DNA of 64,000 nt from a virus, in IMG/VR virus record IMGVR_UViG_3300035670_000033, positions 62,001 to 126,000 of that record. The stretch is one strand, 5' to 3'. A program made the translations under genes and the position numbers. The notes beneath the pieces were generated by a model. The model was given only the letters and a program-made list of their open reading frames with translations. It did not search any database and was not told the DNA's origin. How positions within the stretch are numbered: the first letter of the stretch is position 1; the number at the start of each line of letters is the position of its first letter. Below, piece after piece: positions 18,555 to 36,302 of the stretch.

Positions 18555-18570
18555 GTTAATTACTTAATGA

Positions 18571-19884: not shown

Positions 19885-19969
19885 GTTTTTCACTCCTAGT
19901 GAATTGGATTTGGTTGGTGATTACTTATGTTTCTTTATTGCAGACTTCGGTAAGCACCTAGTCCAGTTA

Positions 19970-19998
19970 CTATTACTGTAATACGAGAATAACATCAA
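19970..19998 (-). promoter_or_regulatory. Candidate promoter for the major capsid gene
   Basis: On the minus strand TTGATG (19993-19998) and TAATAG (19970-19975) are separated by 17 nt, about 85 nt before the capsid ATG. The 150-nt gap between the 20037 gene and the capsid gene is otherwise empty and AT-rich, unlike the overlapping junctions upstream. Confidence 0.45.
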
Positions 19999-20036
19999 AG
20001 TAGTATTAGAAATGCAACCCCATATTTAACACTTGG

Positions 20037-21443
20037 CTATTTTGAACGGTATCTTTTAACCGCCTGTGGACAGCATCCGCCAGCGTATTTAATACCGTAT
20101 TCCCCTTCATCAAAACCAGCCCATTTTTTGGCTGTTTTACGGTTTTTCCATGGGTGGTCAATAGGCAAAAGATCATTATCTTCCGAATATTTTACATCTT
20201 TGGGTTTTTCCGAGTTCAGCAAAGACAGGAACTTTGAGACCCGCTTATTCGCTTCTTCCCGACCGCCGTCAGCAAAACCTCTAACGAACACAACCTTAAG
20301 GTCGCGAAGGTTGGTTTTGGCAGAAGTTTTTGCTTTAGCATTATTTTTGCGCACCATAACAGCGAGATTATTGATGTCTGTGCTTGTCACGGTTGGAGGC
20401 TTTTTCTTTGGCTTGGGTACACCTTTGTAAAAAAATATTCCGTCGTCCAGTACATCTTTTTGCGATCTTTTAGCCCCACGCGCAAGCATCACATCTCTCA
20501 CATTTAGTTCCTCTGGAGTAACTACGTAAGGAAGTTTCTCTGCGCGACCTACTTCGTTAATGTGTTGTTGTACTTCCTTGGGTGAAAGTTTATATTTGCG
20601 CGATGCGCGAAGGTATGCGAATTTTTGAATTCTGCGCATTTTTTTGGCGTATTCCTTGTCATCTTTGCTGAGACCTGAAGTTTTTACGATCTCATCAATT
20701 GATGATTTCCAATAATTCTTGACATCTTTTGCCTTGTCGTAATCTATTCGTGTTACAGAACGAGGTGCATTCGCTTCACGAGATGGGCTCTTGGGTGCAT
20801 TTTGCCTTCTTCTCCGAACCATTTCTGCTTGATGTTCAGCAAAACTAAGGCGCTGTTTCTTCGGCTTGTTTGCTTTTGGTTTTGGCACTTTTGCTACAGG
20901 AATATTATCTTCGCCATCTGCACCCGTAGCGAAACCATCTCCGTCTCCGTCTTCAAGAGCACCCATCCCACCGATCGGTTTGAACATTCTTCTATAACCA
21001 CTGATTGAACGACCAAGCGCTTTTTCGTCCATTTCTGACTTCTTCTTAAACCCTGAACCTTGGCGTCGCGGATTATTTATCGGACTGTTATCCCCGCGGA
21101 TACCTGTGACACGGTTGTAATCAGAAACATTTGTACAAGGAAGCCAAACAAGTTTTCCATCGCGTGCCGTGTAACGGCGAATACCTATACATCCAAGGTT
21201 GCGTGCACGAATACGGGCAGACTCGGGGTCACTGAAAGTATCAGGATCTGTGGAACGGCTAACAAAGTTAACGAAACCCTTTTCTTCTACAGGTTTCTCT
21301 AAAGTCTGCTTTTTATTCATGCCTTTGATGTACTCAGCAGGATTTTGATTTTTCACTATTGTAAAGTAATAAAAATCAGCCTTCTCATCAGGCGACAAGG
21401 TTTGTACGAGAATGGCTAATTCTCTTGATTCGGTAGGTGTCAT
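20037..21443 (-). CDS. DGDGDG-tagged basic modular protein, first of the two before the capsid gene
   Basis: A 468-residue, strongly basic protein. Residues 1-45 form a helical head. Residues 76-103 contain ARNLGCIGIRR ending KLVWLPC, a repeat shared with the next gene upstream. Residues 143-183 carry the shared module: ALGRSISG, KPIGG and the EF-hand-like DGDGDGFATGAD followed by GEDNIPV. The rest is Lys/Arg-rich and helical, with a C-terminal segment (DLKVVFVRGFADGGREEANKRVSKF, written here only as landmarks VVFVRGFADGG and KWAGFDEG) that I do not recognise. It overlaps the upstream ART-like gene by 4 nt. Shared tags with that protein suggest the same destination, probably the prohead. Confidence 0.65.
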   Translation of the reverse strand: MTPTESRELAILVQTLSPDEKADFYYFTIVKNQNPAEYIKGMNKKQTLEKPVEEKGFVNFVSRSTDPDTFSDPESARIRARNLGCIGIRRYTARDGKLVWLPCTNVSDYNRVTGIRGDNSPINNPRRQGSGFKKKSEMDEKALGRSISGYRRMFKPIGGMGALEDGDGDGFATGADGEDNIPVAKVPKPKANKPKKQRLSFAEHQAEMVRRRRQNAPKSPSREANAPRSVTRIDYDKAKDVKNYWKSSIDEIVKTSGLSKDDKEYAKKMRRIQKFAYLRASRKYKLSPKEVQQHINEVGRAEKLPYVVTPEELNVRDVMLARGAKRSQKDVLDDGIFFYKGVPKPKKKPPTVTSTDINNLAVMVRKNNAKAKTSAKTNLRDLKVVFVRGFADGGREEANKRVSKFLSLLNSEKPKDVKYSEDNDLLPIDHPWKNRKTAKKWAGFDEGEYGIKYAGGCCPQAVKRYRSK

Positions 21444-22678
21444 ATGGTTTCCACAAATCCTTCTTCAACGGCGAGCATTGACCTATCCCATACAACAAAA
21501 AAATTGTCTTTAGTTAGAGCAGCCCTATGACCCTTAGCCGCGAAGAGACGACCAATATCGTCGTCTCCACCGAACTCACTTTTTCTACCGCTGTATCTCG
21601 CCTCAATCATTTCATCAAATTCTGATCTCTCTGTAACGGTGTTCGGGGGAATTGCCACCCTCATCACCGTTCCTTGCATCGCATTATTAATATAGGCGTA
21701 TTGTCTAGCGGTTCTAAGGTCATCCGTAAAATAGATTCCATTAGCCTGATGACCCATACCCGCCCAGTAGTCACCTTCCATAAACTGTTTTGCCAACTGT
21801 TCAGATGTTGACAATCTATTATCAGGGGTGCCAGGTAAATCGGCGTTAAAAACATCCTTAATGCCTCGGTAAGCAATCGTCCAACCCTCTTGTTCCAACT
21901 GTTTCATTTTTTCAGACGAGACAACTTTTGGCTTGCCCGTAAAACCCTGTTTTTCCGCAATTATTTCAAGTTGGACATCTCCATATTGCTTTCCAGCAAG
22001 TTTGTATTCATTCGTTCGCTTTTTTATTTCTTTGTCGCCCTCTGATCTAACTTCAATAAAACCCCTATAGTTTCCAAAGTAAACTTTCAAATCGTCCGTA
22101 ATGTCCTTGGCTCGCTTAAGTATTTTTTTAGTAGGGGCAGGAATATTGTCTTCTCCGTCAGGACCAGTAGTGAACCCGTCGCTATCGCCGTCAAACTCTG
22201 CTACACCACCAATAGGGCGACCTAAAGACTTGCCAGAAAACGAGCCAGTTACAAGCCCACCACCCGGCAAGGTTGCGATGCCAGTAATAGGTTTCTCGTC
22301 AAGGTTCTCCCAACCCCGTTTAGGTGCCTTGTGGTTGCAAACCGCATAATACTTTTTCCCTGCAAGCAGAACAGTTCGTACACCACCACAACCACGAGCC
22401 TTAGAAATAGCAACAGCATCAGCACGATTCTCATAATATGCATCAGACTTTGTTTCTAAACGCTTGGTGCGTTGAACCATTTTCGGCAAAGGTTTTTTAT
22501 TATTTGAAGCACGAACTTTTAAATACTCTTCTTTACCCTTTTTGATTCCCTCATATTCTTCGTGTGAGGCGCAAGGCATCCAACCAGCATCGGTCTCATG
22601 GGCTCCCTGACATCCAAGCATGCGGGCAACACGAAGCGCCTGATCCCTAGTGGTTTTATTCTTTTCGTCTTCAGACAT
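21440..22678 (-). CDS. DGDGDG-tagged protein with ADP-ribosyltransferase-like C-terminal domain
   Basis: A 412-residue protein. The N-terminal third has two cysteine repeats (ARMLGCQGAHE ending WMPC, and SKARGCGGVRT ending AVC). Residues 152-182 hold the tag: LGRPIGG, then the calcium-loop-like DGDSDGFTTGPD, then GEDNIPAP. Residues 255-412 look like an ADP-ribosyltransferase fold: Arg271 in AYRGI, a Ser-Thr-Ser at 290-292, NGIYFTDD followed by ARQYA, and acidic residues around TERSEFDEM. Such enzymes move ADP-ribose from NAD+ to proteins or nucleic acids. T4 Alt is the known example of a capsid-packaged, injected ART. Here the catalytic assignment rests on short motifs, so activity is likely but unproven. 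Confidence 0.65.
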   Translation of the reverse strand: MSEDEKNKTTRDQALRVARMLGCQGAHETDAGWMPCASHEEYEGIKKGKEEYLKVRASNNKKPLPKMVQRTKRLETKSDAYYENRADAVAISKARGCGGVRTVLLAGKKYYAVCNHKAPKRGWENLDEKPITGIATLPGGGLVTGSFSGKSLGRPIGGVAEFDGDSDGFTTGPDGEDNIPAPTKKILKRAKDITDDLKVYFGNYRGFIEVRSEGDKEIKKRTNEYKLAGKQYGDVQLEIIAEKQGFTGKPKVVSSEKMKQLEQEGWTIAYRGIKDVFNADLPGTPDNRLSTSEQLAKQFMEGDYWAGMGHQANGIYFTDDLRTARQYAYINNAMQGTVMRVAIPPNTVTERSEFDEMIEARYSGRKSEFGGDDDIGRLFAAKGHRAALTKDNFFVVWDRSMLAVEEGFVETI

Positions 22679-22941
22679 TATTGTTTTTCTTTTTTAGATA
22701 CTTTTTCAACCTCTGAAGCATATTCCATAGACATCGCGTACTGATCAAATAGTTCATCTATTTTGTCTGCATTCTCTTTGTTCATCAGATACGAGACCAT
22801 TGACTCAAGGTCACCATCTTTGCCATTTTCATTTGCATACCCGTAGGCAATGGCAATAATTTTAGAACGTGTCTCAGGGTTCTTTACTGTCGTTAGCAGT
22901 TGATTTTTGATTGAGTTTTTTTGTTCTGTTGTAAGTTTCAT
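22678..22941 (-). CDS. Small acidic helical protein after the 1048-residue protein
   Basis: An 87-residue, all-helical protein. It begins MKLTTEQKNSIKNQLLTTV and ends FDQYAMSMEYASEVEKVSKK. Its start overlaps the stop of the giant gene upstream by 1 nt and its stop overlaps the ART-like gene by 1 nt, so it is tightly coupled to both. The ending SMEYASE resembles SMSAQYSSD in the 103-residue protein at 26091. A chaperone, packaging adaptor or immunity-type partner of the giant protein is possible by position; no motif decides. Confidence 0.6.
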   Translation of the reverse strand: MKLTTEQKNSIKNQLLTTVKNPETRSKIIAIAYGYANENGKDGDLESMVSYLMNKENADKIDELFDQYAMSMEYASEVEKVSKKEKQ

Positions 22942-25900
22942 TACGCCAACCTCGGTGGTTCCACCCGTATTCTAGGGCGAGCAATTTTTGGTTTCTTAGG
23001 GAGTTTCTGACCAATTTTTTGTTCAGCAAAAGATAGCGTTCCACCACCAAATCCAAGATTTGCTTTAAACCATTGTTTCACATATTCCATTTTTTCCCTG
23101 TCGCCAGTAGGATCATCCAAAGCAAAGATTATGTCTTGATGCTGATACTGCTTACCACCTCGCGCCTGTGCGAGAATTGATTTAATTCTCGCATATTCTG
23201 CGTCATTGTTTATCAATCCGCCAGCACCAAAATCCTCATAAAATTTGAGAGGTGACTGAAGCACCTGTAGGTCTCTGTCTGCCAAGCCATAGTTTCTTTT
23301 GAATCCAACACGAGCCCAAACATATTGTCCATCATCGGCTGCGTTCACCATCGCCTTTGTGACACCTATTTGCTTCAGGTAAAGAAACGCGTGCTGGTTA
23401 TAAATTGTTTGAATATCAGCGCCTCTATCTATTTTGCTTGTCACAAACATTGAATTTTGGCTTACCGTACCCTGCGATACGCTTACACTCCGAGACGATT
23501 TAGCGATTGCTGCTCTTATAACTTCACCGTTTGCGTTGATCTCGTCAAACGTAACCGAAATCTGAAACCCATTTTGAGGAGACACTGTTGCGGTAGCACG
23601 GTAAAGTTTCCCGTTCTTGCCTTCAATTCTTTGGTGGGAATAAGCCTGTTTCAAGTACTCTGCCTTTTGCGGAGCAGTGAGTCTTCCCCATTTTACGGGT
23701 GTCATGTCTTCATATGGTGCACCACCGTTTGGGTGCCGTTGCTTAAGATACTTAGCAAGTTTCCCTTGACGACGTTCAATCGCCTCGTTCACCTGATCAT
23801 TGATCTTCTTCGCTACATCTTCTGGAAGCGGTCTAGGAATATTTGTTGCATCTGGATTGAAAACAAAACCTTGTTTCCTTCTTTCTGATGCTTTCCGTAT
23901 TTCTGGTCCTAATGCTTCTATCAACTGAAGATGACCTTCATATTTGCCAATATCAGACTGTAATTGAGCAATTTTTTTCATTGTCTCAACACGGTTGAAT
24001 TCTTTTGCTTCTGGAGTATTTCCAATAGGTGAACGCATAAGTCTGAATTCTGCGCTTAGTTGTGTTTCTAATTCGGTAAGTTTGGTTCGCACACCCGCGA
24101 CACCACCTTGTGGTCTTACGTATCCGATATATTTTCTTTTTGCCTCGGTGACTAAAGCCGATACATCGGCATCGGGGTTTGCTCGGAGCAAATCAGCAAC
24201 TCTTGAAAGTTCTTTTTGAAAGTTCCGCACCGCTAGTTGGCGACCTTCATTTTGGTTGAACAATGCTTGATCGGCTAGTAATCCAAGTTGTCCCAAAAGT
24301 TTTGGATCTTGCATTTGAAGCAATACTTCTTCAATCAGATCTTCATTTTCTTTTTTGAATTTGGCTGCTTCCATCTTTGGTGGAACATGCTTCAGTTCGT
24401 CTGGAACATCTCGGATATCGCGTGGCGATGGGGTGTCAACACTATTAGCGATCGGAGCGTCAACTGGAGGTTCTCCAGTACGGTTGGCGTCATAGATTTC
24501 CTGCCATGCGTCCCTGTAGTCTTTAATATATGTTTTAATGCGGGCAATATTTATTTCCTCGTCTTGCCTTCGTTCAATGAAGTCATTGTCAGAAAGTTCA
24601 CCTCTAGCAATCGCTTGCTCTATACGCGCTATCCTTGCATCCGCTGCAACTATTTTTTGTGCGGCTTCAACCAATTTCTGTCCGCGTCCAGCGCCAATGG
24701 GTGGGAAGTTGGCGGGGTCATTGATGATCATTATCCTGTCATTTGGCATGACATCATTTAAAACATAACCTTCAAAGTCTCTATCGTTAAGAACTTCATT
24801 CAGGTTAACCCTTTGTCCTGCACCACGCGCTCTATCCGCTCTGGCTTGGCGCATTCTTTCCGAGTTGGCAGCGTTGTCACTGTTGCCGGGTTGTGGGCGA
24901 GCGGGAGATGCCTCTGGTTTTGGTTTTCTGCGTTTAGGTCCTGCTACGGCACGACGCTCTTCCGATTCGGCATCAAGTAGTGCACCAATATCGTTCCTGT
25001 CGGGGTTTGCCCTAGGGCGACGAGGTTTAACTACTTTTGGCTCAACAACTGAGCGTGGAGGCTGAAGACGCCTTACCTCTTCTTCCAACTTAACTATTTT
25101 TTCTCGTTGACGCCTGATTGCTTGTGGCGCCGCACTATTCTGTCGCATCATCTGCAACATGTCTCGTGCTTCGTTAAGATCACGCTCTGCTACTGCGAGC
25201 GGATCGGTCTCATTTGCTCGGCGTGTTGGTGCTTTAGGTTTCTTTGTTGCTTCAACTACGGCACGACGGCGACGGCGAGCAGGCGCTTCACCAGTTCTTG
25301 GTGCACCCGGCTGTTCAATTTCGCGTTGCATTCTTCTTTGTTCTGATTCACGAAGATTTCCTTCACCTCGTGGTCTTGCAGGTTGACGTCTGCGAGCAGG
25401 GCGTGCAGGAGCATTGCGTCGTCTTAGTTCCGCCATTACTCGTTTGTAATCGTCGCTGTCTCTTCCGCCAGTAGCGTTCTCTAATTCGTCGCGCATTTCC
25501 TCTAAAACCTCTAGAGGTTCTGCGGCGAGAAGATTTGCTTCGTCACGGGCAGGGCGAGCGGGTGCTTGTCGTCTGCGTTGCGGACGAGGTGCAGGTGTTA
25601 ACTCTCTAGGTGCTTCAGGTGTGTCAACCGACGGTGGTCGTGCAACAACAGTTCGCCTACGAGCGCCACGAGGACTAGGGGCATTCCCGCCATCCAGTCG
25701 CTCAGCAATACCACGTAAACCTTGCTCAAGACGACCAGCACCACCGCCTTGGGGGTTAAGTCTTGCAAGTATTCGGCGTTCACGACGAGCAATACGACGA
25801 CCACGGCGAGCATCATCAACATTTTCCAACCGTTGACCAATATCTGATATTTGATTAGCGATGCGTCGTGCGACCCCCCAACCGCAAGACCGACCAAAAC

Positions 25901-26087
25901 GATCTGTTATCTGTCCACCATACCGTGTCCCCGTTGGACAGCGCCAGCCTCCACGACGGTTAGTGCCGGGGATAGAAAGACTCGGATCCCACATGGCGCG
26001 AACAGCCTTGACTTCATAAGCAATAGTTGACGTGTTCCGTTCGCTAAGAAAAGATTTTGCCTTAAAGTCGGCGATATTCTGAAGCAT
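22941..26087 (-). CDS. Giant modular protein 1: shared N-terminal module, Pro/Arg linker, GNAT-like C-terminus
   Basis: The 1048-residue protein has four parts. Residues 1-133 are the shared module (WDPSLSIPGTNRRGG, CPTGTRYGGQITDRFGRSC with Cys50 and Cys68, then ARRIANQI and RLENVDD, ending GLRGIAERLDGG). Residues 134-420 are Pro/Arg/Ala-rich and disordered, with GNLRESEQRRMQREIEQPGA also found in the protein at 29708. Residues 430-800 are long charged helices. The C-terminal 230 residues contain LYRATATVSPQNGFQISVTFDE, ADIQTIYNQHAFLYLKQIGVTKAMV cut here by a loop, and YVWARVGFKRNYG, which resemble a GNAT-like acyltransferase fold. That assignment is tentative. It is the last and largest of three paralogous giant proteins between protease and capsid. 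Confidence 0.7.
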   Translation of the reverse strand: MLQNIADFKAKSFLSERNTSTIAYEVKAVRAMWDPSLSIPGTNRRGGWRCPTGTRYGGQITDRFGRSCGWGVARRIANQISDIGQRLENVDDARRGRRIARRERRILARLNPQGGGAGRLEQGLRGIAERLDGGNAPSPRGARRRTVVARPPSVDTPEAPRELTPAPRPQRRRQAPARPARDEANLLAAEPLEVLEEMRDELENATGGRDSDDYKRVMAELRRRNAPARPARRRQPARPRGEGNLRESEQRRMQREIEQPGAPRTGEAPARRRRRAVVEATKKPKAPTRRANETDPLAVAERDLNEARDMLQMMRQNSAAPQAIRRQREKIVKLEEEVRRLQPPRSVVEPKVVKPRRPRANPDRNDIGALLDAESEERRAVAGPKRRKPKPEASPARPQPGNSDNAANSERMRQARADRARGAGQRVNLNEVLNDRDFEGYVLNDVMPNDRIMIINDPANFPPIGAGRGQKLVEAAQKIVAADARIARIEQAIARGELSDNDFIERRQDEEINIARIKTYIKDYRDAWQEIYDANRTGEPPVDAPIANSVDTPSPRDIRDVPDELKHVPPKMEAAKFKKENEDLIEEVLLQMQDPKLLGQLGLLADQALFNQNEGRQLAVRNFQKELSRVADLLRANPDADVSALVTEAKRKYIGYVRPQGGVAGVRTKLTELETQLSAEFRLMRSPIGNTPEAKEFNRVETMKKIAQLQSDIGKYEGHLQLIEALGPEIRKASERRKQGFVFNPDATNIPRPLPEDVAKKINDQVNEAIERRQGKLAKYLKQRHPNGGAPYEDMTPVKWGRLTAPQKAEYLKQAYSHQRIEGKNGKLYRATATVSPQNGFQISVTFDEINANGEVIRAAIAKSSRSVSVSQGTVSQNSMFVTSKIDRGADIQTIYNQHAFLYLKQIGVTKAMVNAADDGQYVWARVGFKRNYGLADRDLQVLQSPLKFYEDFGAGGLINNDAEYARIKSILAQARGGKQYQHQDIIFALDDPTGDREKMEYVKQWFKANLGFGGGTLSFAEQKIGQKLPKKPKIARPRIRVEPPRLA
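25689..26087 (-). repeat. Shared N-terminal module, copy 1
   Basis: Codes residues 1-133 of the 1048-residue protein. It is nearly identical over the WDPSLSIPGTNRRGG to GVARRIANQI core to the modules at 28553-28942 and 32174-32572. The two cysteines are 18 residues apart. Confidence 0.85.
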
Positions 26088-26090
26088 GGT

Positions 26091-26402
26091 TTAAGCCTTA
26101 AAACTTTTTTTATTTGGAAGAGACTTAATTTGATTTTTATACATTTCTTCAGTTACTTGCCCATCAGAACTGTATTGTGCGGACATTGAATTAAGACGGT
26201 AAAGAATATATTCCATTCCGCTTCCCTCCAAAGGGATCTCGTTTCGTGCCGACGATTCTGAAAGAATTTCAATAAGTTGATCAACAAGTTCTTTATCGGA
26301 AGCGTGTATTTCTACAAGTCCATCAATATTTTTTCCAGCGCAAGACCCATTTACCTTGTTTGTAAATGGATCCATGAATTGACCTATAAAAAACTCTCTC
26401 AT
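26091..26402 (-). CDS. Small hypothetical protein after the 959-residue protein
   Basis: From ATG 26402 the protein is 103 residues, with AAGGTG as ribosome-binding site inside the preceding gene (a GTG at 26408 is also in frame). It contains KVNGSCAGKNIDGLVEIHASDKELVDQLI and MEYILYRLNSMSAQYSSDGQVTEEM; only short landmarks are given because the family is unknown. It follows the second giant protein and precedes the third, repeating the giant-then-small order of this region. Confidence 0.55.
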   Translation of the reverse strand: MREFFIGQFMDPFTNKVNGSCAGKNIDGLVEIHASDKELVDQLIEILSESSARNEIPLEGSGMEYILYRLNSMSAQYSSDGQVTEEMYKNQIKSLPNKKSFKA

Positions 26403-26404
26403 GA

Positions 26405-29284
26405 TCACCTTTGGTTACTTGGAATTATGTTGACTATCTCATTTTCGGCGTTGCGAAGGTTTGCAAGACTTCGTACCATGCCATCATAAAGTGCTCCTGC
26501 TCGGGCTTTATTTGAGTCAGTCTTACTTACTTTTTGCAATGCGTCTGTTATGAATTGTTCACGACCGACAGCAAGTGTTTTTTCTGTTTGCACAACAACC
26601 TGTCTGTACACTTCTTGAATTCGCGCATAAGTTTCACGCCTTTGCGCGGCTGACATAGCGGGTAGTGCGGTGCGCATAGTGGCAAGAATGTCCGTGTCCA
26701 TACGAAAACCCCGTTGGTAACGATCAAATAGTCCTCCGTGATCCCTTCCAGCCCAACCCAAGTCCATCGGAACGACATGCGCTAATTTCTTGCCGTCTGG
26801 TAATTCCACTACACGACCCATACCGTTGCCTCCGTGGCGGTCGCTAACACCAAGAATATAGTTGGCTAGAACATTAGACAATCTTTCAGGAAGACCTTTA
26901 TCTGGAAGGGCATTCAGGGCTCCTTTGTTGAAATCGTAGCCACCAGCAGCACCGCCGATTACTGCTCCTTCAGGCACGTCGTTGTGTGCCAGAGGGATCA
27001 TGATGTAGGGGGTTCCTTTTCGGACTGTTCCAAGAGGCTTTCGTACATCTGCTTCAAGTTTACCGTCTTGAATTGCTCCGTCTTCCAAGATCCCTACAGC
27101 AGCCAAGTAGTTCCATCCAATGAGTTCGCCGACATTGTCGGCAGGTTTTGCAGCCTTGAAAACCCATCCCTGATTAGTTGGATTTCCATTTTCATCACGC
27201 AAAAAGTAAATTTTAGTTACACCTACAGCGCCACCGTTGGGTTGTACTTTTTTGAAACGCTTATTCGTGTCTCGTGGATCTGATGAAGCGTTTGCTTCTA
27301 TGGCAATGTGCATGAATTTTGCTGGAACCTTTTGTATGTCTCCACCATTTTTTATATGGTCAATCGCTTTTTGTTCCGTGTTAATTGTTCGGTCTTCTTC
27401 TGAAACAAATTTTCCAATTGGAGAATTCCGTCTATCTATCTTTAATTTGCCATGCGCATTTTTGCTTCTAGCAAATTTTCGGAAAGGAGATTTTTTTTGC
27501 TGTTTTGCTTGTTGCGCTTGCGGTGATGGTGGTGTCCTTGGCGTTGGTGGTTCAGGTGGTTCGCTATTTCCGTTGCTTAGATCCAAAAACTGTTGACTAA
27601 AATCGCGTAAGTAACGATTCAGTGACGCTTGACCCTGTGGACCTCGGTACTCTTGTTCTAGCGCGTCACCATCAACGATATTTCTGGCTAGGAAACCACG
27701 AAATTTTCCGCTTTCTTGTGGGAGTAATTCAATTTCCCAGTTTCCTTTTTTCCATCTAGTTGAACCATCAGGTTGGTTAATAGCGTCCCAACCTTCTCCA
27801 CCAAAATCGGGCATTCTTACATTTGCCCGTGCCGGTGCGCCTCCGTCCCCAGGTGTGACAAAACCGCGACCATCTGGTGAGCGTCGCGGTTGGCGTGCAG
27901 GGCGTGCAGGGCGTGCAGGTGCTGGCTCGGGAATATCATTCGCTTGTGGTTTGCGTGATGCGCTACGACCAGCACCCTGTGCTGTTGCTTGCCGACGGCG
28001 ACGACGGCTATTTTGTGGGCGACGATTACGAGGCGCTGGTGGTTCAAAATCTATTGGTGCTGAACGACCGTGTGCATCTTTCCAAGCATCGCGAAGATTA
28101 TTTTTGTTGATCTCGTACCATTCACGGCGAGTCAACATTCCTGCGTTCCCGCCACCTTCGCGAATTTCTCGTACTCGTTTAGCGTATTCACCATATTTTC
28201 GTAATACATACGGTTTGAAATCTTCTGTTTCACCAGCGTCGGAAGCATCTCTTGCGGTGAGAACATCAACATTTGCTGGTTGTGGTGCAACGCGCGGGCG
28301 TGCCTGTGGTCGTGCCTGTGGGCGTCGTTGTCCTGCTGGTGCTGGTCGGCGTGCAGGACGAGGTGTTGGTGCGGGTGTAGGCGCTGTTTCTGGTATTGCG
28401 TCACGACGACGGTTTCTCGGCACTCGTGCTGGTGCCTCAACTTCAGGTGTTTCGTCGTTGCGTCGTCCACCTCTATTGACTCTTCGGTTAATAGCACCCG
28501 CTAAACCTTCATTGTTTACCCTGTCCAACAAATTCCCTCGCCGTGGGGACTCACCTCCCTCAAGGCGATCAGCGATATTCCGCAGACCGCCTTCAACCCG
28601 ACCAGTTTCCGCAACTCCGCCAAGCCTTCTCATCATTCGTGCGTTACGGCGATCAAGACGACGCTTCCGTTTGTCATCATCTCGTTGTTCTAAGCGTTCG
28701 CCAATGTCAGCAATTTGGTTTGCAATTCGTCGCGCAACTCCCCATCCGCACGAACGACCAAAACGATCTGTTATCTGTCCGCCGTATCTTGTGCCTACAG
28801 GGCATCGGAAACCGCCACGGCGGTTAGTGCCGGGGATGGAGAGGCTTGGATCCCAAACTGCACGAACACCTTTGATTTCAAAATGCGCTGACGAACGAGT
28901 TTGGTCAGAAATAAAAGAAGATGCTTTAAAAGTCAAAACATTTTTGAACTCTTCGTTAGAAAACTCAGAAAGCAAAACTTCAGAAATAGATAAAACTGGC
29001 AGGTTTTTGAATTCCATCGGCTCACTTTGAATATGTGCAAGTGAAGCAACTTTTTTCTGAACTGCTGTTCCTGATGGGCTCGGACCTTCAATTATTTTGG
29101 ATGCATCCATTGACTGAACTAGTTCAGGCTTAGTGATTGGGGTGTCGGCGTATTCTTCGCGGAGTATCCCAACAAGTTCCTTTGCATCTTCCGTCATCGG
29201 TTTGAATGTGGATCCCTTGGGGGTCGTTGAAACAACCATAAATGGTGTGTTGTCACGGTTCTTGATAATGAAAACTAGGTTCAT
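26405..29284 (-). CDS. Giant modular protein 2: shared module and DRHGGN kinase-like C-terminus
   Basis: The 959-residue protein starts with about 110 residues of its own (MNLVFIIKNRDNTPFMVV, EDAKELVGILREEYAD), then the shared module at residues 115-244 with Cys161 and Cys179. A Pro/Arg/Ala-rich linker runs to about residue 580. The C-terminal 330 residues resemble PI3K/HipA-type atypical kinases: a nucleotide-binding strand GWVFKAAKP, the catalytic loop SDRHGGNGMG with Asp815 and Asn820, and a metal-binding Asp841 in PMDLGWAG. These enzymes transfer phosphate from ATP to protein or lipid. The protein at 29708 has a related domain. The N-terminal 110 residues look like one of the small neighbouring genes fused on. 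No membrane segments are seen. Confidence 0.75.
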   Translation of the reverse strand: MNLVFIIKNRDNTPFMVVSTTPKGSTFKPMTEDAKELVGILREEYADTPITKPELVQSMDASKIIEGPSPSGTAVQKKVASLAHIQSEPMEFKNLPVLSISEVLLSEFSNEEFKNVLTFKASSFISDQTRSSAHFEIKGVRAVWDPSLSIPGTNRRGGFRCPVGTRYGGQITDRFGRSCGWGVARRIANQIADIGERLEQRDDDKRKRRLDRRNARMMRRLGGVAETGRVEGGLRNIADRLEGGESPRRGNLLDRVNNEGLAGAINRRVNRGGRRNDETPEVEAPARVPRNRRRDAIPETAPTPAPTPRPARRPAPAGQRRPQARPQARPRVAPQPANVDVLTARDASDAGETEDFKPYVLRKYGEYAKRVREIREGGGNAGMLTRREWYEINKNNLRDAWKDAHGRSAPIDFEPPAPRNRRPQNSRRRRRQATAQGAGRSASRKPQANDIPEPAPARPARPARQPRRSPDGRGFVTPGDGGAPARANVRMPDFGGEGWDAINQPDGSTRWKKGNWEIELLPQESGKFRGFLARNIVDGDALEQEYRGPQGQASLNRYLRDFSQQFLDLSNGNSEPPEPPTPRTPPSPQAQQAKQQKKSPFRKFARSKNAHGKLKIDRRNSPIGKFVSEEDRTINTEQKAIDHIKNGGDIQKVPAKFMHIAIEANASSDPRDTNKRFKKVQPNGGAVGVTKIYFLRDENGNPTNQGWVFKAAKPADNVGELIGWNYLAAVGILEDGAIQDGKLEADVRKPLGTVRKGTPYIMIPLAHNDVPEGAVIGGAAGGYDFNKGALNALPDKGLPERLSNVLANYILGVSDRHGGNGMGRVVELPDGKKLAHVVPMDLGWAGRDHGGLFDRYQRGFRMDTDILATMRTALPAMSAAQRRETYARIQEVYRQVVVQTEKTLAVGREQFITDALQKVSKTDSNKARAGALYDGMVRSLANLRNAENEIVNIIPSNQR
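28553..28942 (-). repeat. Shared module, copy 2 (internal)
   Basis: Codes residues 115-244 of the 959-residue protein. The core matches copies 1 and 3 almost residue for residue, but here the module is internal, after a 114-residue extension, so it need not be at the N-terminus to be kept. Confidence 0.85.
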
Positions 29285-29408
29285 TGTTTACTTTCCACAT
29301 TTGTGAAGGCATTGAGCAAGCCCTGTAAGTCTTGCGTCGCAATATCGCTACTGTAAAATGGTATCACTAACGGCAGATATCAAAATTATGACACTGTAAA
29401 CATATTAT

Positions 29409-29702
29409 TTATTTGTCTAATTTTTTGTGCCCTAATTGAATAAGAAAATTATCAATTTTCTCTTTGCTTGAACCCTCGTATTTTAATATTTCTGCATTGA
29501 GGTAAGAGTACCCATGCAACATGTTTTCAAGAGTCGCCATCTTGGGGGAATTCTTCTTCATAGTTAGGAAATGCTCATTATCTCGTTTGTCGTTATCGCG
29601 ATTTTTTGAGTAATAAGTGATAATCCCCTTATCGTCTTCCACCAAAACAATTGGGGAAGCCTGAACCAGTGGATCCTTAGAGGTGATGATTGCCGCTCTC
29701 AT
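29409..29702 (-). CDS. Small hypothetical protein after the 954-residue protein
   Basis: A 97-residue protein beginning MRAAIITSKDPLVQASPIVL and containing GIITYYSKNRDNDKRDNEHF. It starts 5 nt after the giant gene upstream and is followed by a 124-nt gap before the next giant gene. Its KNRDN stretch recalls the IIKNRDN of the first 15 residues of that next protein, a weak hint of common origin. No function can be assigned. The following gap (29285-29408) holds no gene; an AT-rich stretch there may contain a promoter, but no good -35/-10 pair was found. Confidence 0.55.
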   Translation of the reverse strand: MRAAIITSKDPLVQASPIVLVEDDKGIITYYSKNRDNDKRDNEHFLTMKKNSPKMATLENMLHGYSYLNAEILKYEGSSKEKIDNFLIQLGHKKLDK

Positions 29703-29707
29703 GATAT

Positions 29708-32572
29708 TTACAATCCTAATAGCAAGTCGGCGATCCTTGATGGATCAACATCGGTCAAATATTTCATTTTCTTTTGTGGTCTTTCGCCAATTCTGACAAC
29801 AGCCTGATCTCCAGCCCTTGGATTCGGTGTTCCATCTCCGCCTGTTTTTAGAACATCATTAACCATATTCAAATATGGGTTTTTTCTTTCGGCTTCGCGA
29901 ATAGATTTCTGCACATCGGCAACCGCGGCTATTACCTCACGCCTACTCAGTCTCCCCTGTCTAACCTGTTCGCGAAGAGTTGAAAGCATGTCGTTTCGTC
30001 CACCACCGTAACTATCTCGTAGCCACCCTACAAAACCAGCGTCGTCGCCATCAAATGCTTCAAATGCTCTACCTCCCCAGTTGACATCAAAACCAAGAGA
30101 TGGGTCAATTGGAACAAATCGGAGTTTCCCGTTCGCGTCTGGCGCAACAAAAAAGTTACCACCGTGACGATCTCTATTAACAATTACAAAGTCCATTAAT
30201 GTCGCACGAACACGATCAGACGGCTTTATGTCGCCCATATTCGCAACGTCTCTTCCCAATCGCAGTCTTCCTTCAACATAGTTTCCTGCGTGTTCGTAAA
30301 CTATTGCGCGACCACCGCTATGTGGTACACCATTCCCGCCTTTTTGTTTGCCGTCTAGTCGCAAACCACCAACGGGCATGCCGAAACGACCTGCGAGATT
30401 ATTGCCGACCATTTCGTGAATATCTTCGTTTTCCGCCTGTGCACCAGCCTGATATTTAAGGAAATACTGTTTCCCTGTTACGGAATCCGTAAACATGTGC
30501 ATGTTGTCAGGGATCATTCCGTTAACTCCACCACCAGCATCCTGTTTGCTGAATCTATTCGTCGCACCATGTAACGCTTCTCCCAAGAATTCGTCTGGTA
30601 CGTCGGCTAAATCTCCACCTTGTTCTAGGTGAGCGATTGCTTGTCCCTTGGTGTCAATTCCTTTATTTCCCACAGGAACGCTTTTCACGTCAGGGAGACC
30701 ATCTTCTCCTTTGGAATTTAGTTTCTCTGGTGCGTGATCTTGCTTCGCTGAAGGTGGAGAAACATCCCAACCTCCTTCGGGCTCTGGTATTTCCGCTGGT
30801 CTATCAGGTGGGCGGACTGGAGGTTGTACTCGTGGGGCATTAGGGGCTTCAACATTGTTGTTGGCAACAACAGGAGGTCTTTGCCTGAAGGCAATATCCG
30901 CCTCAATTTCAACAGCCCTTAATTCAGCAGCGGCAACATTCTCTTTAATTTTTTCTTTTTGCGCCCATGATCGCAATAAATTCTCTCGGGCTTCATCTCT
31001 TTCTCTTTGATTTCCGTTTTTCTTAGAACGCCAGTCGTCGTATGCTTTATCAAAACCAGTTTGTGCCTGTTTCAAAAGGTCTTGATATTCATTTTTTTTG
31101 CCTAAAACTTGTTCCCTTGACAGGTTGCGCAAATTGTTGTAGGCGTTTGGCTTGTATCTTGCAACTTCATCTTTGACTATTTTGACCAAATCTTTATCTC
31201 CCGGCTGGTCAAACTCTGCATCTGGGTTTATGTCTCTTGCAGGAATCGGTGGTGGACCTGCTGGTCGTGCGGGTGCTTTTGGTGCGGGCGCTGGCGGTGC
31301 AGGCTGTGGCGCTCCTGCCTGTTGTGCAAATATTTGTTGGTTAACAAAATTGCCACGAGCATTACGCTTATTGTTGTCACCGTAATAGCGACCGAACCTT
31401 CTTTCTAGTTCGGCTCTCTCTTCACCTTCAGGGAAATCTGGTTTACGCCAATACGCATCTTCGGGTAGCCCGCGAAGATCACCGAAACGGTTACGAACAT
31501 TGCGAATAGAAGCAGCGTCTGGAACGCTTCCACCCAACTCGTCTGCTGTTGGATTCCATGCGGGTGGATCAGGAATTGGTGTTGATGGTTTCTGTTGTTC
31601 TGGCGGTTTTGGTGCAGGTTTTCTGCGTGGCACCTTCGTCGGTTCGGGTTTAGCACTGTCAACAAAATCTGCTTCAGGCTTTCTTCTTGCTGTTCGTTTC
31701 GCGCCCTGTTGTGCTGCGGCTCGTCGTCGGCGTCGTGGAGCATTCGGTCTTGGTGGTTCACCTGTACGCGGTGCGCCGGGTTCAACTAATTCTCGTTCCA
31801 TTCTTCGTGCTTCAGATTCGCGAAGGTTCCCTTGTCGGCGAGGTGCTTTTTTACCTCTACGATTCAGTTCCGCGTTAACTTTGTCTAGACGTTGCCGTGC
31901 GGTAGATCTTTGAACACTGACAGGGAGCATACCGATTCTTCCGTCATCACGAGGTTTGTCCACTGCGTCTCGCAGAATGTCAACTGCTCGTTGTGCGTCT
32001 TGATACTGTTTTTCTAGATCTTCATCACTCATAGTGCGAAGGTTCTCTACATATGGATCTTTGTCATCTCGTCTCGGAAGTGCGGGAATATCGCGAGTTG
32101 GCATTACTGGACGGGCTGGAGGTTGCGCAGGGATTCTTGGGCGTGCTGTTGGTCGTGCCTGTTGCGGAGCCTGTCCACCCTCAAGTGCTTCTGCAATATT
32201 TCTTGCACCACGCTCAAGAAAACCTGGCTTGTTCTGACGAGCCAACATTCGTTGTACACGAGCATTGCGTCTTGCCAAACGGTCGTTTCGTTTGCGGTCA
32301 TCAATGTTTTCTAAACGCTCACCGATATCTGCGATTTGGTTTGCAATACGACGTGCAACACCCCATCCGCATGAGCGACCAAATCTGTCGGTTATCTGTC
32401 CACCGTAACGGGTGCCAACCGGGCATCGCCATCCTCCGCGACGATTCGTTCCGGGGATAGAAAGACTCGGATCCCAAATCGCTCTAACGCCTTTTACTTC
32501 ATAACTGAAAGTACTGGATGTTTGTTCAGAGAGGAAAGTAAGAGCCTTAAAATTTACTTCGTTTTTGAGCAT
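29708..32572 (-). CDS. Giant modular protein 3: shared module and DRHGGN kinase-like C-terminus
   Basis: The 954-residue protein begins directly with the shared module (residues 1-133, Cys50 and Cys68). A long disordered Pro/Arg/Ala linker follows, with GNLRESEARRMERELVEPGA in common with the protein at 22941, and a helical segment near residues 480-600. The C-terminal 300 residues are kinase-like: YFLKYQAG (candidate ATP-binding Lys), EMVGNNLAGRFGMPVGG, catalytic loop NRDRHGGNFF with Asp801 and Asn806, and Asp823 in PIDPSLGFD. This is the PI3K/HipA-type signature. HipA phosphorylates glutamyl-tRNA synthetase and halts growth, one precedent for such a fold acting on the host. Substrate is unknown here. 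It abuts the DUF5872 gene upstream. Confidence 0.78.
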   Translation of the reverse strand: MLKNEVNFKALTFLSEQTSSTFSYEVKGVRAIWDPSLSIPGTNRRGGWRCPVGTRYGGQITDRFGRSCGWGVARRIANQIADIGERLENIDDRKRNDRLARRNARVQRMLARQNKPGFLERGARNIAEALEGGQAPQQARPTARPRIPAQPPARPVMPTRDIPALPRRDDKDPYVENLRTMSDEDLEKQYQDAQRAVDILRDAVDKPRDDGRIGMLPVSVQRSTARQRLDKVNAELNRRGKKAPRRQGNLRESEARRMERELVEPGAPRTGEPPRPNAPRRRRRAAAQQGAKRTARRKPEADFVDSAKPEPTKVPRRKPAPKPPEQQKPSTPIPDPPAWNPTADELGGSVPDAASIRNVRNRFGDLRGLPEDAYWRKPDFPEGEERAELERRFGRYYGDNNKRNARGNFVNQQIFAQQAGAPQPAPPAPAPKAPARPAGPPPIPARDINPDAEFDQPGDKDLVKIVKDEVARYKPNAYNNLRNLSREQVLGKKNEYQDLLKQAQTGFDKAYDDWRSKKNGNQRERDEARENLLRSWAQKEKIKENVAAAELRAVEIEADIAFRQRPPVVANNNVEAPNAPRVQPPVRPPDRPAEIPEPEGGWDVSPPSAKQDHAPEKLNSKGEDGLPDVKSVPVGNKGIDTKGQAIAHLEQGGDLADVPDEFLGEALHGATNRFSKQDAGGGVNGMIPDNMHMFTDSVTGKQYFLKYQAGAQAENEDIHEMVGNNLAGRFGMPVGGLRLDGKQKGGNGVPHSGGRAIVYEHAGNYVEGRLRLGRDVANMGDIKPSDRVRATLMDFVIVNRDRHGGNFFVAPDANGKLRFVPIDPSLGFDVNWGGRAFEAFDGDDAGFVGWLRDSYGGGRNDMLSTLREQVRQGRLSRREVIAAVADVQKSIREAERKNPYLNMVNDVLKTGGDGTPNPRAGDQAVVRIGERPQKKMKYLTDVDPSRIADLLLGL
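32174..32572 (-). repeat. Shared N-terminal module, copy 3
   Basis: Codes residues 1-133 of the 954-residue protein. Together with copies 1 and 2 it defines a family of about 130 residues: a variable 27-residue start, the Cys-containing core, a basic helix, and a closing IAExLEGG-like turn. Confidence 0.85.
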
Positions 32573-34288
32573 TTACGATTTCTTTCGCTCTTTCGCGAGG
32601 TCGGGTTTGATGAATGTTTCGTAAAGCCAGCGCGGAGCCTTTCGCTTGACACCATCAGTACCAGTGTATTCAACAAGTTGAAGTGCATCTGGAATCTCAC
32701 CACTGTCAACATTGAATTTGAATGCGCCTTCTGACGCGTTAGCAAAATCTTCAATATTTTTTATGATGTTGTCTTTGTTGCTTGACTCGGCAAGAGAGTT
32801 AATCATTCGCGGAAACTTTCGCTTCTCACCGATAGTGAAAGGACGTGATCGTTCAATACTGATGCTCACACCGTTGGGCGCAACGAAAGCAATTTTACTC
32901 ATTGAAGGACCACCCAATAGCGCTAGGTCATCAGCACCTATGTCAGATGGAAGTTGAACTGCGCGAACCATTGCACCGTCAACCATGTCAGGGTTCTCAC
33001 TGAAGGAACGCAAAACCGATGATGGAACTACAGGGCGAAGAACCACTCCATCTCTGCGGATCATTCGTCCTTCGCCTCGTGGAGCACCCTTCAAAAGACT
33101 CACCGCATCCGACACAGACTTGCCGAACCTATCTTTTTGGAAAGCACCTGTTCTTGGTATTTGCGCCATGCGTTGAATCTGTATGGTGCGCGTATTGCTT
33201 GGATTTCCTTCTAATACTTCAGAAAGGTTTTCTGCTCGTGCTTGTGGAAGTCGTGTGGTTGCCCCTCGTACCGCGCGAGCGGCTAGTGCGAGTGGTCCTG
33301 GTATTTCAAACAGTTGCGCACCACAGGTTGAAAAACGGTTGTCCGTGAATCGTCCACCATATTCAAAACCAGCAGGGCATCGTGCTTGACGCTTGCGATT
33401 GGGCTTTAGTCTACTTAACGCTCCACCGCCCCCACCGGGTACGAGTGCACCATAAACTCGTGAACGGATAGGTGATGTAAGTGGTGAAATGTTCCCCGGC
33501 GTTAGTGCAGAACCAACGGCTTGTGCCGCTCTGCCTGCCGTGCTTCCAGAACCTATAAGTCCTGCTTTCGTTTCCATGTCCTCTGCATCGTCTTTGCCGA
33601 CACGGTATCCACCACCACGTTTTTTATATTCACGAACAAGCCAAGCATTAGCGTAAGCAGATGGGTATACATTGAATTTCTTTTTTGCTTCTGCTTTGAC
33701 CCGTGCATAAAGTTCAGGGTCTGTGGGGATATTTTCGCTCTTGAATTCTTCTCCATCGGACTTAAATGTGGAGACATTGATCGGCTTGTTTTCTTCCCGA
33801 TCTCCTGTTGTTTCTGCTCGTCGTTTTCTGCGTACCGCTGAATCAATTTCTTCCGCAGACATTTTCATGGCGGTAGATTTCTTTACACACTTAGGGTATT
33901 TACCTGAATCTGCGTCCCCGCGACCGCAAGGTTCAAAACCGCCACCTTTTTTAGGGCGTGAAATGTCAACCCATTCTTCTTCAAACCATTTGCCCAAACC
34001 ACCACGCTTGGTTTCATCACCGACGAATGTTTCTGCACCGAGCCTTGAGGAGCGAGACTTCAGGTAAAGTTTTGCTTTGAAGTTTAGAAGAGTTCTGCTT
34101 CCGTCAAGTGGAGTTTTACGAACATCTGATCCTTTAGTAAAAAGGAATTTTGTTTTCGCATTATCAGGATTAAAATAAAGTTCCTCACCCGAGACAATAT
34201 TTGTGCGTTTCATGGCAGTTTTCATGCGCATGGACATACGGAGTTTCCTTGCGAAATACTCAAAGTCTTGGTTGAGGTAGTTGCTCAT
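32573..34288 (-). CDS. DUF5872 protein with a diverged copy of the Cys module
   Basis: A 571-residue protein. Residues 95-160 match DUF5872 (KWFEEEWVDISRPKKGGG, EPCGRG, KYPKCV, then SAVRRKRRAE), and the segment YPSAYANAWLVREYKKRGGG near residue 205 is the companion motif usually found with it. DUF5872 is known from large aquatic phages and giant viruses; its function is not established. Residues 295-350 contain a diverged form of the shared module: ARCPAGFEYGGRFTDNRF, then a Cys, and later ENLSEVLEG. The C-terminus is an alpha/beta region ending in a basic tail. It abuts the 954-residue gene. Its position and the common module link it to the giant proteins. Confidence 0.75.
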   Translation of the reverse strand: MSNYLNQDFEYFARKLRMSMRMKTAMKRTNIVSGEELYFNPDNAKTKFLFTKGSDVRKTPLDGSRTLLNFKAKLYLKSRSSRLGAETFVGDETKRGGLGKWFEEEWVDISRPKKGGGFEPCGRGDADSGKYPKCVKKSTAMKMSAEEIDSAVRRKRRAETTGDREENKPINVSTFKSDGEEFKSENIPTDPELYARVKAEAKKKFNVYPSAYANAWLVREYKKRGGGYRVGKDDAEDMETKAGLIGSGSTAGRAAQAVGSALTPGNISPLTSPIRSRVYGALVPGGGGGALSRLKPNRKRQARCPAGFEYGGRFTDNRFSTCGAQLFEIPGPLALAARAVRGATTRLPQARAENLSEVLEGNPSNTRTIQIQRMAQIPRTGAFQKDRFGKSVSDAVSLLKGAPRGEGRMIRRDGVVLRPVVPSSVLRSFSENPDMVDGAMVRAVQLPSDIGADDLALLGGPSMSKIAFVAPNGVSISIERSRPFTIGEKRKFPRMINSLAESSNKDNIIKNIEDFANASEGAFKFNVDSGEIPDALQLVEYTGTDGVKRKAPRWLYETFIKPDLAKERKKS

Positions 34289-34416
34289 TTTGTCAGTTCT
34301 TTAGGTGCTAATTGATCTGGCAGGGATTTTCCCATTGCATACTGGGCACCAACCCGCTATCTAAAGAATATCAGGTTGATGCCTTCTTGAATATTTGCGT
34401 ACTTAGACAGTGGCTT

Positions 34417-34617
34417 TCAGCCGTCTTGTTTTACTGGCTCCCAATATCCTCGGGAAAGAACCGAGTCAATCATGACTTCCGTTTGGACGCCGTTCCCCAT
34501 TTGTATGAAACCCATTCTCCTAGACACACCTTCCACAGGGCTGTCATGGGTGTAAAAAAGTTTATCGTTACCCCTGTTGGCTATGTGCTGATTGTTGACT
34601 AAGTGCTGATTTTTCAT
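34417..34617 (-). CDS. Small hypothetical protein coupled to the DUF3626-like gene
   Basis: A 66-residue frame whose ATG (34617) overlaps the TGA of the gene upstream in an ATGA junction, a strong sign of coupled translation. It contains NRGNDKLFYTHDSPVEGVS and MGNGVQTEVMIDSVLSRGYW. The family is unknown. Of the 325 nt between the large genes here, this frame fills most; nothing is seen in 34289-34416. Confidence 0.5.
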   Translation of the reverse strand: MKNQHLVNNQHIANRGNDKLFYTHDSPVEGVSRRMGFIQMGNGVQTEVMIDSVLSRGYWEPVKQDG

Positions 34618-36290
34618 ACAGGCGATTCTTCCTCTACTAATTCTTGTTCTGTCTTCACCACATCCATAATTGTCCCCGACTGCACATCAAACTTTTGATT
34701 TTTCCTTACAGGTGCGACACGAATGCCTGCTTTTTCAAGTTTTTCTCTGATGGTTTCAAAGTCTTTTTCGGTGACACTGTTACCAAACGGATCGTTGTCG
34801 TCAACGGCGATAACGGCAAATTCAACGTCTCCTGTGGATACGCCTCCGTGCAATTGTGCTTCCGCATACTCAATTTTGTATGGACTCCAAACCGCATCTG
34901 CGCTTGGTGTGCCAATAGGTGCTGGTTTGTAGGTAGGTCTTCCGAGACTGTCTCCACCTGTATATGTTGAGCGCGACTCAATGTCTTTTTTCATCATCAA
35001 CTGAATGGCACCATAAGTTCTGACTTCGGTCAACGAATCACGGTCAACCTTCCCGTTCTGTGTGAGATATCCGTAAATAGGACGCTTTGACGGCTCAACA
35101 CTTGGGTGGTACCCCAACTGAACAGCCTCTGATTGTGCGCGTTGACCAAAATCCAAAGTACCCATAGATGTACCTGTTTCAAACTGCGATTTGAAACGAC
35201 CAGATTCAAGTATCTTGTCCAAAACATCGGGTTGTACTGCAATTGTCACGCGCGAGTTTTCTATGGTTTCTTTCGCTGTTTGCAAACGACGCTCTTCACT
35301 AAAGTTTTCATCAAAGGCGGTGACGTTTCCGGCTCTAGTTTGCGCCTGCCATCTTTTGTGTCTGAGTAAATCAACTTGTGCTTCAACAATTATTTTTGTT
35401 TCATCTGAATTGAAACCTAGATTTCCGTATTCAGTTGTTGCTATTTTCGCGTAGGCGTCCATCAGATCTGTTACTTCGCTGTCTGTTGTATTTGGATCTT
35501 GAATTAACGGCAAAGAACGATCATATTTATCTTGTACTGAACTTGGGAAAGTCCCAACTAGAAGCATCTTCAATGGTCTTCCAGTTTCCTTTGCTTCGGC
35601 GATGTCATCTGTTGGGGTGCGAACATCATCAAGTTCTTTTTCTTTTTCTTTTTTATCTTTACGCCTTTTCAGGCTTGCTAGCACAAAGTTTCTTGCGTCA
35701 ACCGCAGCATCTTTTTTGAGTTTTGACGCAACCGCTTCCAACTGTTCTTTTTTCTTGTCAGATATTTTGCCTCGTTTATGTAGCGAATCAGAAGCAAAAT
35801 CCAATAGTTGCCCCCCACCAACCCTTAATAGCATCGCGCTCATGAGTGTGGAATCAGTAAGAGAACCTGAACCGTCTACATGCATATAATCTAATGTTTG
35901 TAAAGCCAAGAGCGCTGTTGCTTTTGCGCCATTCCTTATATTTTCGTTTTTTAGGATGCCTCTAGCACCATCAATGAGTTTCCCAGCCATAGAAGCCGCC
36001 CCGCGGGCTGCTGATTCAGCAGAAGGTGTAAGACAGTTTGACATTTGCATGTCGGTAAATTGGTTCGCATTTGGAGTTCCGGGCGGGCATCGTAGTTTGC
36101 CTGATGAGTCAACAATAACACCAGCGGCTCGCGCTGCTCTTACTCCAACAGAACCTAGTTCGGGTTTATCTTTGATCGTCGGACCAAGAAAACCTTTGAA
36201 TAAAAGAATGTTATCTTGGACAACTTTCACCGACTGAAAATAGTCGGCTACTCTCTCGTTTGCGTCAAATGCGCGAGACGATTTGCTCAT
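34614..36290 (-). CDS. DUF3626-like protein, possible ADP-ribosyltransferase fold, with Cys module
   Basis: From ATG 36290 (GGAGGAG site) the protein is 558 residues. Residues 70-100 hold a diverged Cys module: KLRCPPGTPNANQFTDMQMS followed by Cys. A helical region follows. The C-terminal 260 residues resemble DUF3626: RPIYGYL, then RTYGAIQLMMKKDI, then SRSTYTGGDSL, then EYAEAQLHGGVSTGDVEFAV. The Arg, Ser-Thr and Glu-x-Gln landmarks are in the order expected of an ADP-ribosyltransferase-type fold, so it may modify proteins with ADP-ribose, but I rely on short motifs. It is the first large protein after the protease-proximal genes and overlaps the 66-residue gene. Confidence 0.6.
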   Translation of the reverse strand: MSKSSRAFDANERVADYFQSVKVVQDNILLFKGFLGPTIKDKPELGSVGVRAARAAGVIVDSSGKLRCPPGTPNANQFTDMQMSNCLTPSAESAARGAASMAGKLIDGARGILKNENIRNGAKATALLALQTLDYMHVDGSGSLTDSTLMSAMLLRVGGGQLLDFASDSLHKRGKISDKKKEQLEAVASKLKKDAAVDARNFVLASLKRRKDKKEKEKELDDVRTPTDDIAEAKETGRPLKMLLVGTFPSSVQDKYDRSLPLIQDPNTTDSEVTDLMDAYAKIATTEYGNLGFNSDETKIIVEAQVDLLRHKRWQAQTRAGNVTAFDENFSEERRLQTAKETIENSRVTIAVQPDVLDKILESGRFKSQFETGTSMGTLDFGQRAQSEAVQLGYHPSVEPSKRPIYGYLTQNGKVDRDSLTEVRTYGAIQLMMKKDIESRSTYTGGDSLGRPTYKPAPIGTPSADAVWSPYKIEYAEAQLHGGVSTGDVEFAVIAVDDNDPFGNSVTEKDFETIREKLEKAGIRVAPVRKNQKFDVQSGTIMDVVKTEQELVEEESPV

Positions 36291-36302
36291 CGTCTCCTCC
36301 AA

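Follow-up and report, generated by a model that had tools for sequence, protein, structure and literature searches.

A window of 64,000 nucleotides, corresponding to positions 62001-126000 of the 138,071-base IMG/VR virus record IMGVR_UViG_3300035670_000033, was analysed for the gene array located between its prohead protease and major capsid genes. Coordinates given below are those of the window, and statements on the whole record rest on searches. On the minus strand, the genes are arranged in the order portal-MuF (40294-42504), S78 prohead protease (38102-40231), a protein of 493 amino acids (aa; 36566-38047), the array itself (20037-36302) and HK97-type major capsid protein (18571-19893). 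An earlier interpretation made without database searches (the sequence-only reading) had placed the portal, protease and capsid genes in order on one strand, with protease and capsid some 18 kb apart and the gap filled by tightly overlapping genes for large modular proteins. Pfam matches for the portal protein (PF04860, E=1e-48, with a C-terminal MuF domain, PF04233, E=2.5e-7; also phrog_2662 portal), which forms the upstream border of the head operon, for the protease with its C-terminal extension (PF04586, E=2e-11) and for the capsid protein (PF05065, E=5e-46) are in full agreement with this description, and the protease-to-capsid interval measures 18.2 kb. It is packed with eight open reading frames (ORFs) of 412-1048 aa, the 493-aa protein included, together with small ORFs. 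At most junctions in the array, neighbouring genes overlap by 1-4 bp or are 0-5 bp apart, the exceptions being gaps of 124 and 128 bp. This layout is repeated in 20 related contigs, which strongly indicates that the array is the product of neither chance nor misassembly.

An N-terminal module of some 80 aa is common to three proteins of the array, encoded by 29708-32572, 26405-29284 and 22941-26087, which show 62-72% identity in the first 130-170 aa and have different C-terminal tails. The core of this module, RCPxG[TF]..GG[Q/R][F/I]TD...C, contains two cysteines, and we refer to it as the tag and to the three proteins as tag-module proteins. Alignment with hhalign (E=1e-8, 4e-7 and 6e-6) places the tag core also near the N-terminus of the slot 1 protein (34614-36302; core at about aa 69-90, with AN replacing GG) and within the 32573-34288 protein, so that five window proteins bear it. 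When eight phage records were searched with a tag profile, all 25 matches obtained (25/25) were located between portal and capsid. No relatives of the tag were found in 50,697 cultured-phage records, nor in 84,980 prokaryote species genomes; due to the latter result, no host can be linked to these phages through prophages. The predicted structure of the tag module is of moderate quality, with a predicted local distance difference test (pLDDT) score of about 55-82 over the first 110 residues. The linkers behind the module are long, basic and rich in Arg and Pro (median net charge +26). Thirty of 74 tag-module proteins, among them 22941-26087 and 29708-32572 of the window, carry the linker motif NLRESExRRMxRE..PGAPRTGE, which elsewhere in the examined loci is present in only one truncated protein, and which perhaps constitutes a protease site.

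Capsid and protease scans yielded about 140 related viral contigs, phages of this kind being common in the collection searched, and the 20-kb stretches downstream of the portal gene were taken from 20 of them. A gene-neighbourhood survey for related arrays had been proposed as a check by the sequence-only reading, and it located such arrays between protease and capsid in these 20 contigs. The order portal, protease, 36566 homologue, slot 1, 32573 homologue, tag-module genes, 20037/21440 homologue and capsid is largely retained; gene lengths and tails vary greatly.

Single-protein scans with Pfam and PHROG left most array proteins without a family, and family alignments were required to classify the tails. 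The tail of the 29708-32572 protein (about aa 605-954) and that of the 26405-29284 protein, which is 24% identical to it, gave weak kinase matches in Pfam when taken singly (E about 0.2). In an alignment of 32 kinase sequences, the majority of which have 19-42% identity to the first one, K132, the DRHxxN motif (D227-N232) and D249 are invariant, and a Glu is present in 90% or more. Thus, at about 20% identity the sole invariant positions of the family are the catalytic ones. The family profile matched PI3K best in the PDB (E=4e-5), followed by PI4K, mTOR and Fam20C, and the best fold matches of the predicted structure, in which the region mostly has a pLDDT above 80, were CtkA and PI4KIIalpha. 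Active-site residues, profile and fold together predict that the two window tails are PI3K/HipA/CtkA-like kinases, an assignment that is clear in the family profile. For the tail of the 22941-26087 protein, a structure with a mean pLDDT of 81 was predicted, and all 50 listed PDB fold matches were acetyltransferases or GNAT domains (best E=2e-3); the fold search alone produced these matches, as a profile of this tail matched no PDB sequence. The result supports a GNAT-fold tail and hence a predicted acetyltransferase. Pfam further detected DUF3626 in the tail of the slot 1 protein (E=6e-10) and DUF5872 in the N-terminal half of the 32573-34288 protein (PF19197, E=4e-14). The kinase-like, GNAT-like, DUF3626-like and DUF5872 domains noticed from the sequence alone are therefore recovered by these analyses, and the proposed structure prediction and fold search of C-terminal domains returned kinase and GNAT folds for the tails examined. 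An ADP-ribosyltransferase (ART)-like domain that had also been put forward is not established: the tail of the 21440-22678 protein matched ART-PolyVal below the cut-off (E=0.21) and no ART in the PDB, so that an ART-like tail is only suggestive.

The tails behind a given N-terminus are exchanged. Slot 1 has 10 tail clusters among 38 complete proteins that share one N-terminus; they include kinase, DUF3626-type and HExxH tails, the last with a weak zincin-type match (E=0.16), and one tail with a DRAT match just below the cut-off. Five tail clusters were found behind the tag module. One tail family, A6, resembles DUF3626 by eye; hhalign gave a probability of 3% (E=0.015) and the two were kept separate, for which reason the count of tail families may be slightly high. 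Exchange is also visible between close relatives. In L002 and L004 (98%-identical capsid) a single 735-aa gene matches the N-terminus of 21440-22678 (94-95%) and 20037-21443 (69-95%) and lacks the ART-like tail of 21440-22678, and in L010 the tail is 41% identical to that of 21440-22678 with an N-terminus that is 93% identical. Sequence comparison thus indicates that tails are replaced by unrelated families and have not merely drifted.

These data bear on the view that the large proteins are structural core or scaffold components whose enzyme-like domains are inactive spacers. The location in the head operon and the long low-complexity linkers would suit such a role, and the 32573-34288 protein, which bears the tag and has a constant C-terminal part, may indeed be a core or scaffold component. 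Inactive spacers would, however, hardly keep only the catalytic positions of a kinase invariant at about 20% identity, and replacement of tails by unrelated families, each with tail-specific partners (see below), is equally difficult to reconcile with this view, which we consider highly improbable.

Behind most tag genes whose tail is exchangeable lies a small gene encoding 60-160 aa. In the window, the slot 1 gene 34614-36302 is paired with 34417-34617 (66 aa), which has an ATGA overlap with the slot 1 stop codon and is kept with the same tail in L205. Gene 29708-32572 is paired with 29409-29702 (97 aa), a member of a cluster of 24 found behind this kinase type; 26405-29284 with 26091-26408 (105 aa, 4-bp overlap); and 22941-26087 with 22678-22941 (87 aa, 1-bp overlap), a member of a cluster of 18 found behind GNAT tails. 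A small gene is present behind 67/71 tag-module genes and a partner was called for 30/42 slot 1 genes, while none is present behind the constant-tail tag gene of the 32573 type (0/73), which serves as an internal control. The partners are under purifying selection (pN<pS in 99/99 pairs; median dN/dS of 0.12 where defined), and no Pfam family reached the cut-off when the partner proteins were scanned.

It is the tail, and neither the tag nor the slot, that the small gene follows. Pairs of large proteins with the same N-terminal family and different tails were accompanied by similar small proteins in 1/257 cases for slot 1 and 0/1,685 for the tag module (jointly 1/1,942), as compared to 38/68 and 234/593, respectively, when the tails were related. 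When tails were at least 50% identical, the partners were similar in all 98 of 98 pairs (slot 1, 20/20; tag module, 78/78). Among slot 1 pairs in which N-terminal identity multiplied by coverage was at least 60%, a changed tail went with a changed partner in 9/9 cases and the same tail with a kept partner in 22/23. Across slots, a partner was shared by 11/181 pairs with related tails and by 0/1,587 pairs with different tails.

The partners might be folding or loading chaperones for the tails of packaged and injected effectors, rather than immunity proteins. Their position directly behind the large gene, often overlapping it (82/94 collected large-small pairs overlap or lie within 10 bp of each other), suits translational coupling, and kinases or acetyltransferases made late need not hurt a cell near lysis, in phages for which no integrase was found. 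However, a chaperone that served sorting into the head should accompany the tag, and the partner follows the tail instead of tag or slot and is missing behind the tag protein with a constant tail. The co-variation with the tail, together with this absence, favours immunity, and we regard chaperones as rather unlikely.

Head-packaged effectors have been described or predicted before (PMC5512222; PMC9503650), and a Nudix domain fused to a capsid-processing peptidase is on record (PMC9503650). A comparable arrangement is present in a sister clade of the phages studied here, in which the prohead protease gene runs in frame into giant C-terminal regions. The fusions comprise 4,736 aa (L179:104-14314; sigma70_r4, KTSC, UvrD helicase, RNase_T, ArdcN and MPTase-PolyVal), 2,910 aa (L177:109-8841) and 2,089 aa (L175:13608-19877), and carry sigma-like, KTSC, UvrD helicase, exonuclease, ArdC and metallopeptidase domains in varying combination. 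Together, a tag that is confined to the interval of the head genes, these protease fusions and the published precedents and predictions make packaging of the array proteins plausible; the analogy in gene order with T4 alone was not taken as evidence for it. Alternatively, the proteins could be enzymes for host takeover or superinfection exclusion that are made late and never packaged, their place in the head operon reflecting timing only. Packaging is indeed no more than a proposal drawn from the genes, and cultured actinophages carry non-structural genes such as RNA ligases in the same interval. Timing alone would hardly explain why the tag is confined to the region between portal and capsid, nor why effector-like domains are fused to the prohead protease, and we consider this alternative decidedly unlikely.

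The homologous portal, protease and capsid genes of Gordonia phages GMA6, Hanem and UBSmoodge, Brevibacterium phage Cantare and Streptomyces phage Gilgamesh (46-56% capsid identity; 37% for Gilgamesh) permit a comparison with cultured actinophages, which likewise carry large unknown or enzymatic genes between portal and capsid. In Hanem, UBSmoodge and Cantare the protease adjoins the capsid gene, and the genes between portal and protease encode an RNA ligase and large unknown proteins; the layout of GMA6 is the same, with unnamed genes. An annotated VIP2-like ADP-ribosyltransferase is encoded between portal and protease in Hanem and UBSmoodge, and a hypothetical protein of about 4,626 aa, gp48 (L184:2678-16552), between portal and capsid in Gilgamesh. 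No tag homologue was found in the five cultured-actinophage regions, gp48 of Gilgamesh included. Since the protease lies next to the capsid gene in the Gordonia and Brevibacterium phages, the array between these two genes is a feature of the uncultured lineage. The C-terminus of the conserved 493-aa protein (36566-38047) is 57% identical over 73 aa to the C-terminus of the GMA6 protease, as if an ancestral protease gene had been split; this protein, which has a weak PepSY-like domain, is a possible scaffold.

Genes for terminase, sheath, tube, tape-measure and baseplate (wedge) proteins are located on the plus strand beside the array; sheath, tube and baseplate genes identify the phage as a myovirus. 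WhiB serves as an actinophage marker (PMC10202952), and its presence in the record of the window and in 11/12 relatives supports an actinobacterial phage. Both assignments agree with the sequence-only reading, as does the description of the array as modular and multi-effector, which is supported by the kinase and GNAT domains, the tail swaps behind constant N-termini, the confinement of the tag and the anti-restriction or helicase domains joined to the prohead protease in relatives. The common tag, the small partner genes and the exchange of tails between close relatives go beyond that reading. Neither a tyrosine integrase nor a serine recombinase was detected in 10 records, which may be incomplete, and controls were positive; the phages are therefore probably virulent.

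Together, we consider it probable that the array consists of prohead-packaged, injected effector cassettes of polymorphic-toxin type with cognate partners, residing in the head operon of a probably virulent actinobacterial myophage. The conserved N-terminal module with its two-cysteine tag would sort each protein into the prohead, and the C-terminal enzyme (kinase, acetyltransferase or other) would act on the next host after ejection with the DNA. The C-terminal domain would be exchanged by recombination jointly with the small gene behind it, and the small protein would bind and neutralise its cognate tail inside the producer until the head has enclosed the effector. What we infer here is that the proteins are packaged and ejected, that they have targets in the host, and that the small proteins neutralise them. 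Several observations weigh against this interpretation: the tag has no known fold; at best, Foldseek E-values were only about 2e-3 to 4e-3; slot 1 lacks a called partner in 12/42 cases; the sequence pairs are not independent, making the co-variation counts descriptive; and phages without an integrase have no obvious long-term use for immunity proteins. We tentatively propose, as a possibility only, that the array is a previously undescribed weapon of virulent phages, in which each virion carries several effectors addressed to the prohead by the tag and enzyme tails are swapped from phage to phage as cassettes with their own immunity proteins. The partners would shield the producer and perhaps also neutralise the effectors of a superinfecting relative, amounting to kin recognition at the level of the virion.

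The remaining genes of the array lie at its borders. A small acidic-rich ORF of 88 aa (36303-36569), which overlaps the preceding gene by 4 bp, is located between 36566-38047 and 34614-36302, and small ORFs are present at a like position in most relatives. Directly ahead of the capsid gene are 21440-22678, encoding a protein with DUF3721 (PF12518, E=5e-10), a DxDxDG motif and the exchanged tail described above, and 20037-21443, encoding a DUF3721-like protein with the same motif, which is fused to the 21440-22678 type in near relatives. The EF-hand-like motif DxDxDG...EDN(I/V)P, present in both of these genes (20037-22678) and in 16147-16965, the gene after the capsid group, is accompanied by DUF3721-like repeats and possibly constitutes a second sorting signal. 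A terminator-like hairpin with a 19-bp stem (18514-18555), identified by consensus match only, is situated directly 3' of the capsid gene on the minus strand, and a promoter scan gave no excess over shuffled sequences. Elsewhere in the window, a staphylococcal-nuclease-like gene (17318-17725; PF00565, E=5e-13) belongs to the minus-strand group just past the capsid gene. The plus strand carries a phosphatase-like ORF (13841-14368; DSPc, E=0.001, below the cut-off) and an ORF of the histone deacetylase family (14372-15319; PF00850, E=2e-18), and a phosphoadenosine phosphosulfate reductase-like gene (46832-47965; phrog_2302, E=5e-75) is located amid terminase and tail genes.

If the proposed interpretation is correct, each virion of the actinophages studied here is equipped with a variable set of enzymes, and the tag and partner genes offer a direct handle on the sorting of prohead cargo and on the host systems that must be disabled early in infection. 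The interval between portal and capsid would then list candidate anti-host enzymes alongside candidate inhibitors specific to them.

Already known are the head-packaged effectors T4 Alt, P1 DarB and N4 vRNAP, along with polyvalent proteins and the MuF polymorphic toxins (PMC5512222, PMC5576092). As with T4 Alt, P1 DarB and N4 vRNAP, an enzyme is proposed to reside in the head and to leave it with the DNA, here on the basis of the genes. T4 Alt stands for one or few fixed enzymes, however, whereas the array has many exchangeable enzymes with partner genes, and an ART is indicated in the window only by the sub-threshold ART-PolyVal match. Polyvalent proteins of phages and conjugative elements (Iyer et al. 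2017, PMC5512222) carry 2 to 15 domains of the polyvalent set per polypeptide, and packaging and injection are predicted for them. Of these domains, kinase, GNAT, ArdC, metallopeptidase and helicase, and possibly ART, are also encoded by the phages studied here in the context of packaging genes, the protease-capsid interval in window and relatives, and the protease fusions of the sister clade bear the Pfam domains MPTase-PolyVal and ArdcN. Several domains per polypeptide are a feature of these fusions; the window proteins have one recognised effector domain each, situated C-terminally behind a common tag, and there are several paralogous genes whose small partners are specific to the tail. In addition, the kinase belongs to the PI3K/HipA/CtkA type, whereas the family described in PMC5512222 is a truncated Ser/Thr/Tyr kinase.

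The array shares with the MuF polymorphic toxins of temperate phages (Jamet et al. 2017, PMC5576092) a constant, head-related N-terminus, a variable toxin-like C-terminus, a small ORF behind the gene, there taken as an immunity gene, and a location in the DNA packaging module. It differs in that the set of DNA packaging genes is another one, that there are several slots per genome, and that the N-terminus is not MuF: PF04233 was not detected by Pfam scan in any array protein, MuF being located in the portal protein. Nor were the phages found to be temperate, given the integrase search described above. The cassettes called PEST in Mycobacterium prophages (PMC10654092) similarly combine a common N-terminal signal, an exchangeable toxin domain and a co-varying immunity protein, but they have WXG100-like N-termini, a link to type VII secretion and expression in lysogeny, whereas the genes described here are located inside a head operon. 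As far as our searches reach, the unrelated cysteine tag, the multi-slot gene array, the tail-specific partners in apparently virulent phages and the protease fusions to ArdC and helicase are new. The array follows the logic of polymorphic toxins, with exchangeable C-terminal domains behind a constant N-terminal part (10 clusters in slot 1, five in the tag module, and swaps between near relatives) and a small downstream gene co-varying with the C-terminal domain, and by analogy these tail-specific partners make it look more like a polymorphic-toxin system than like T4 Alt.

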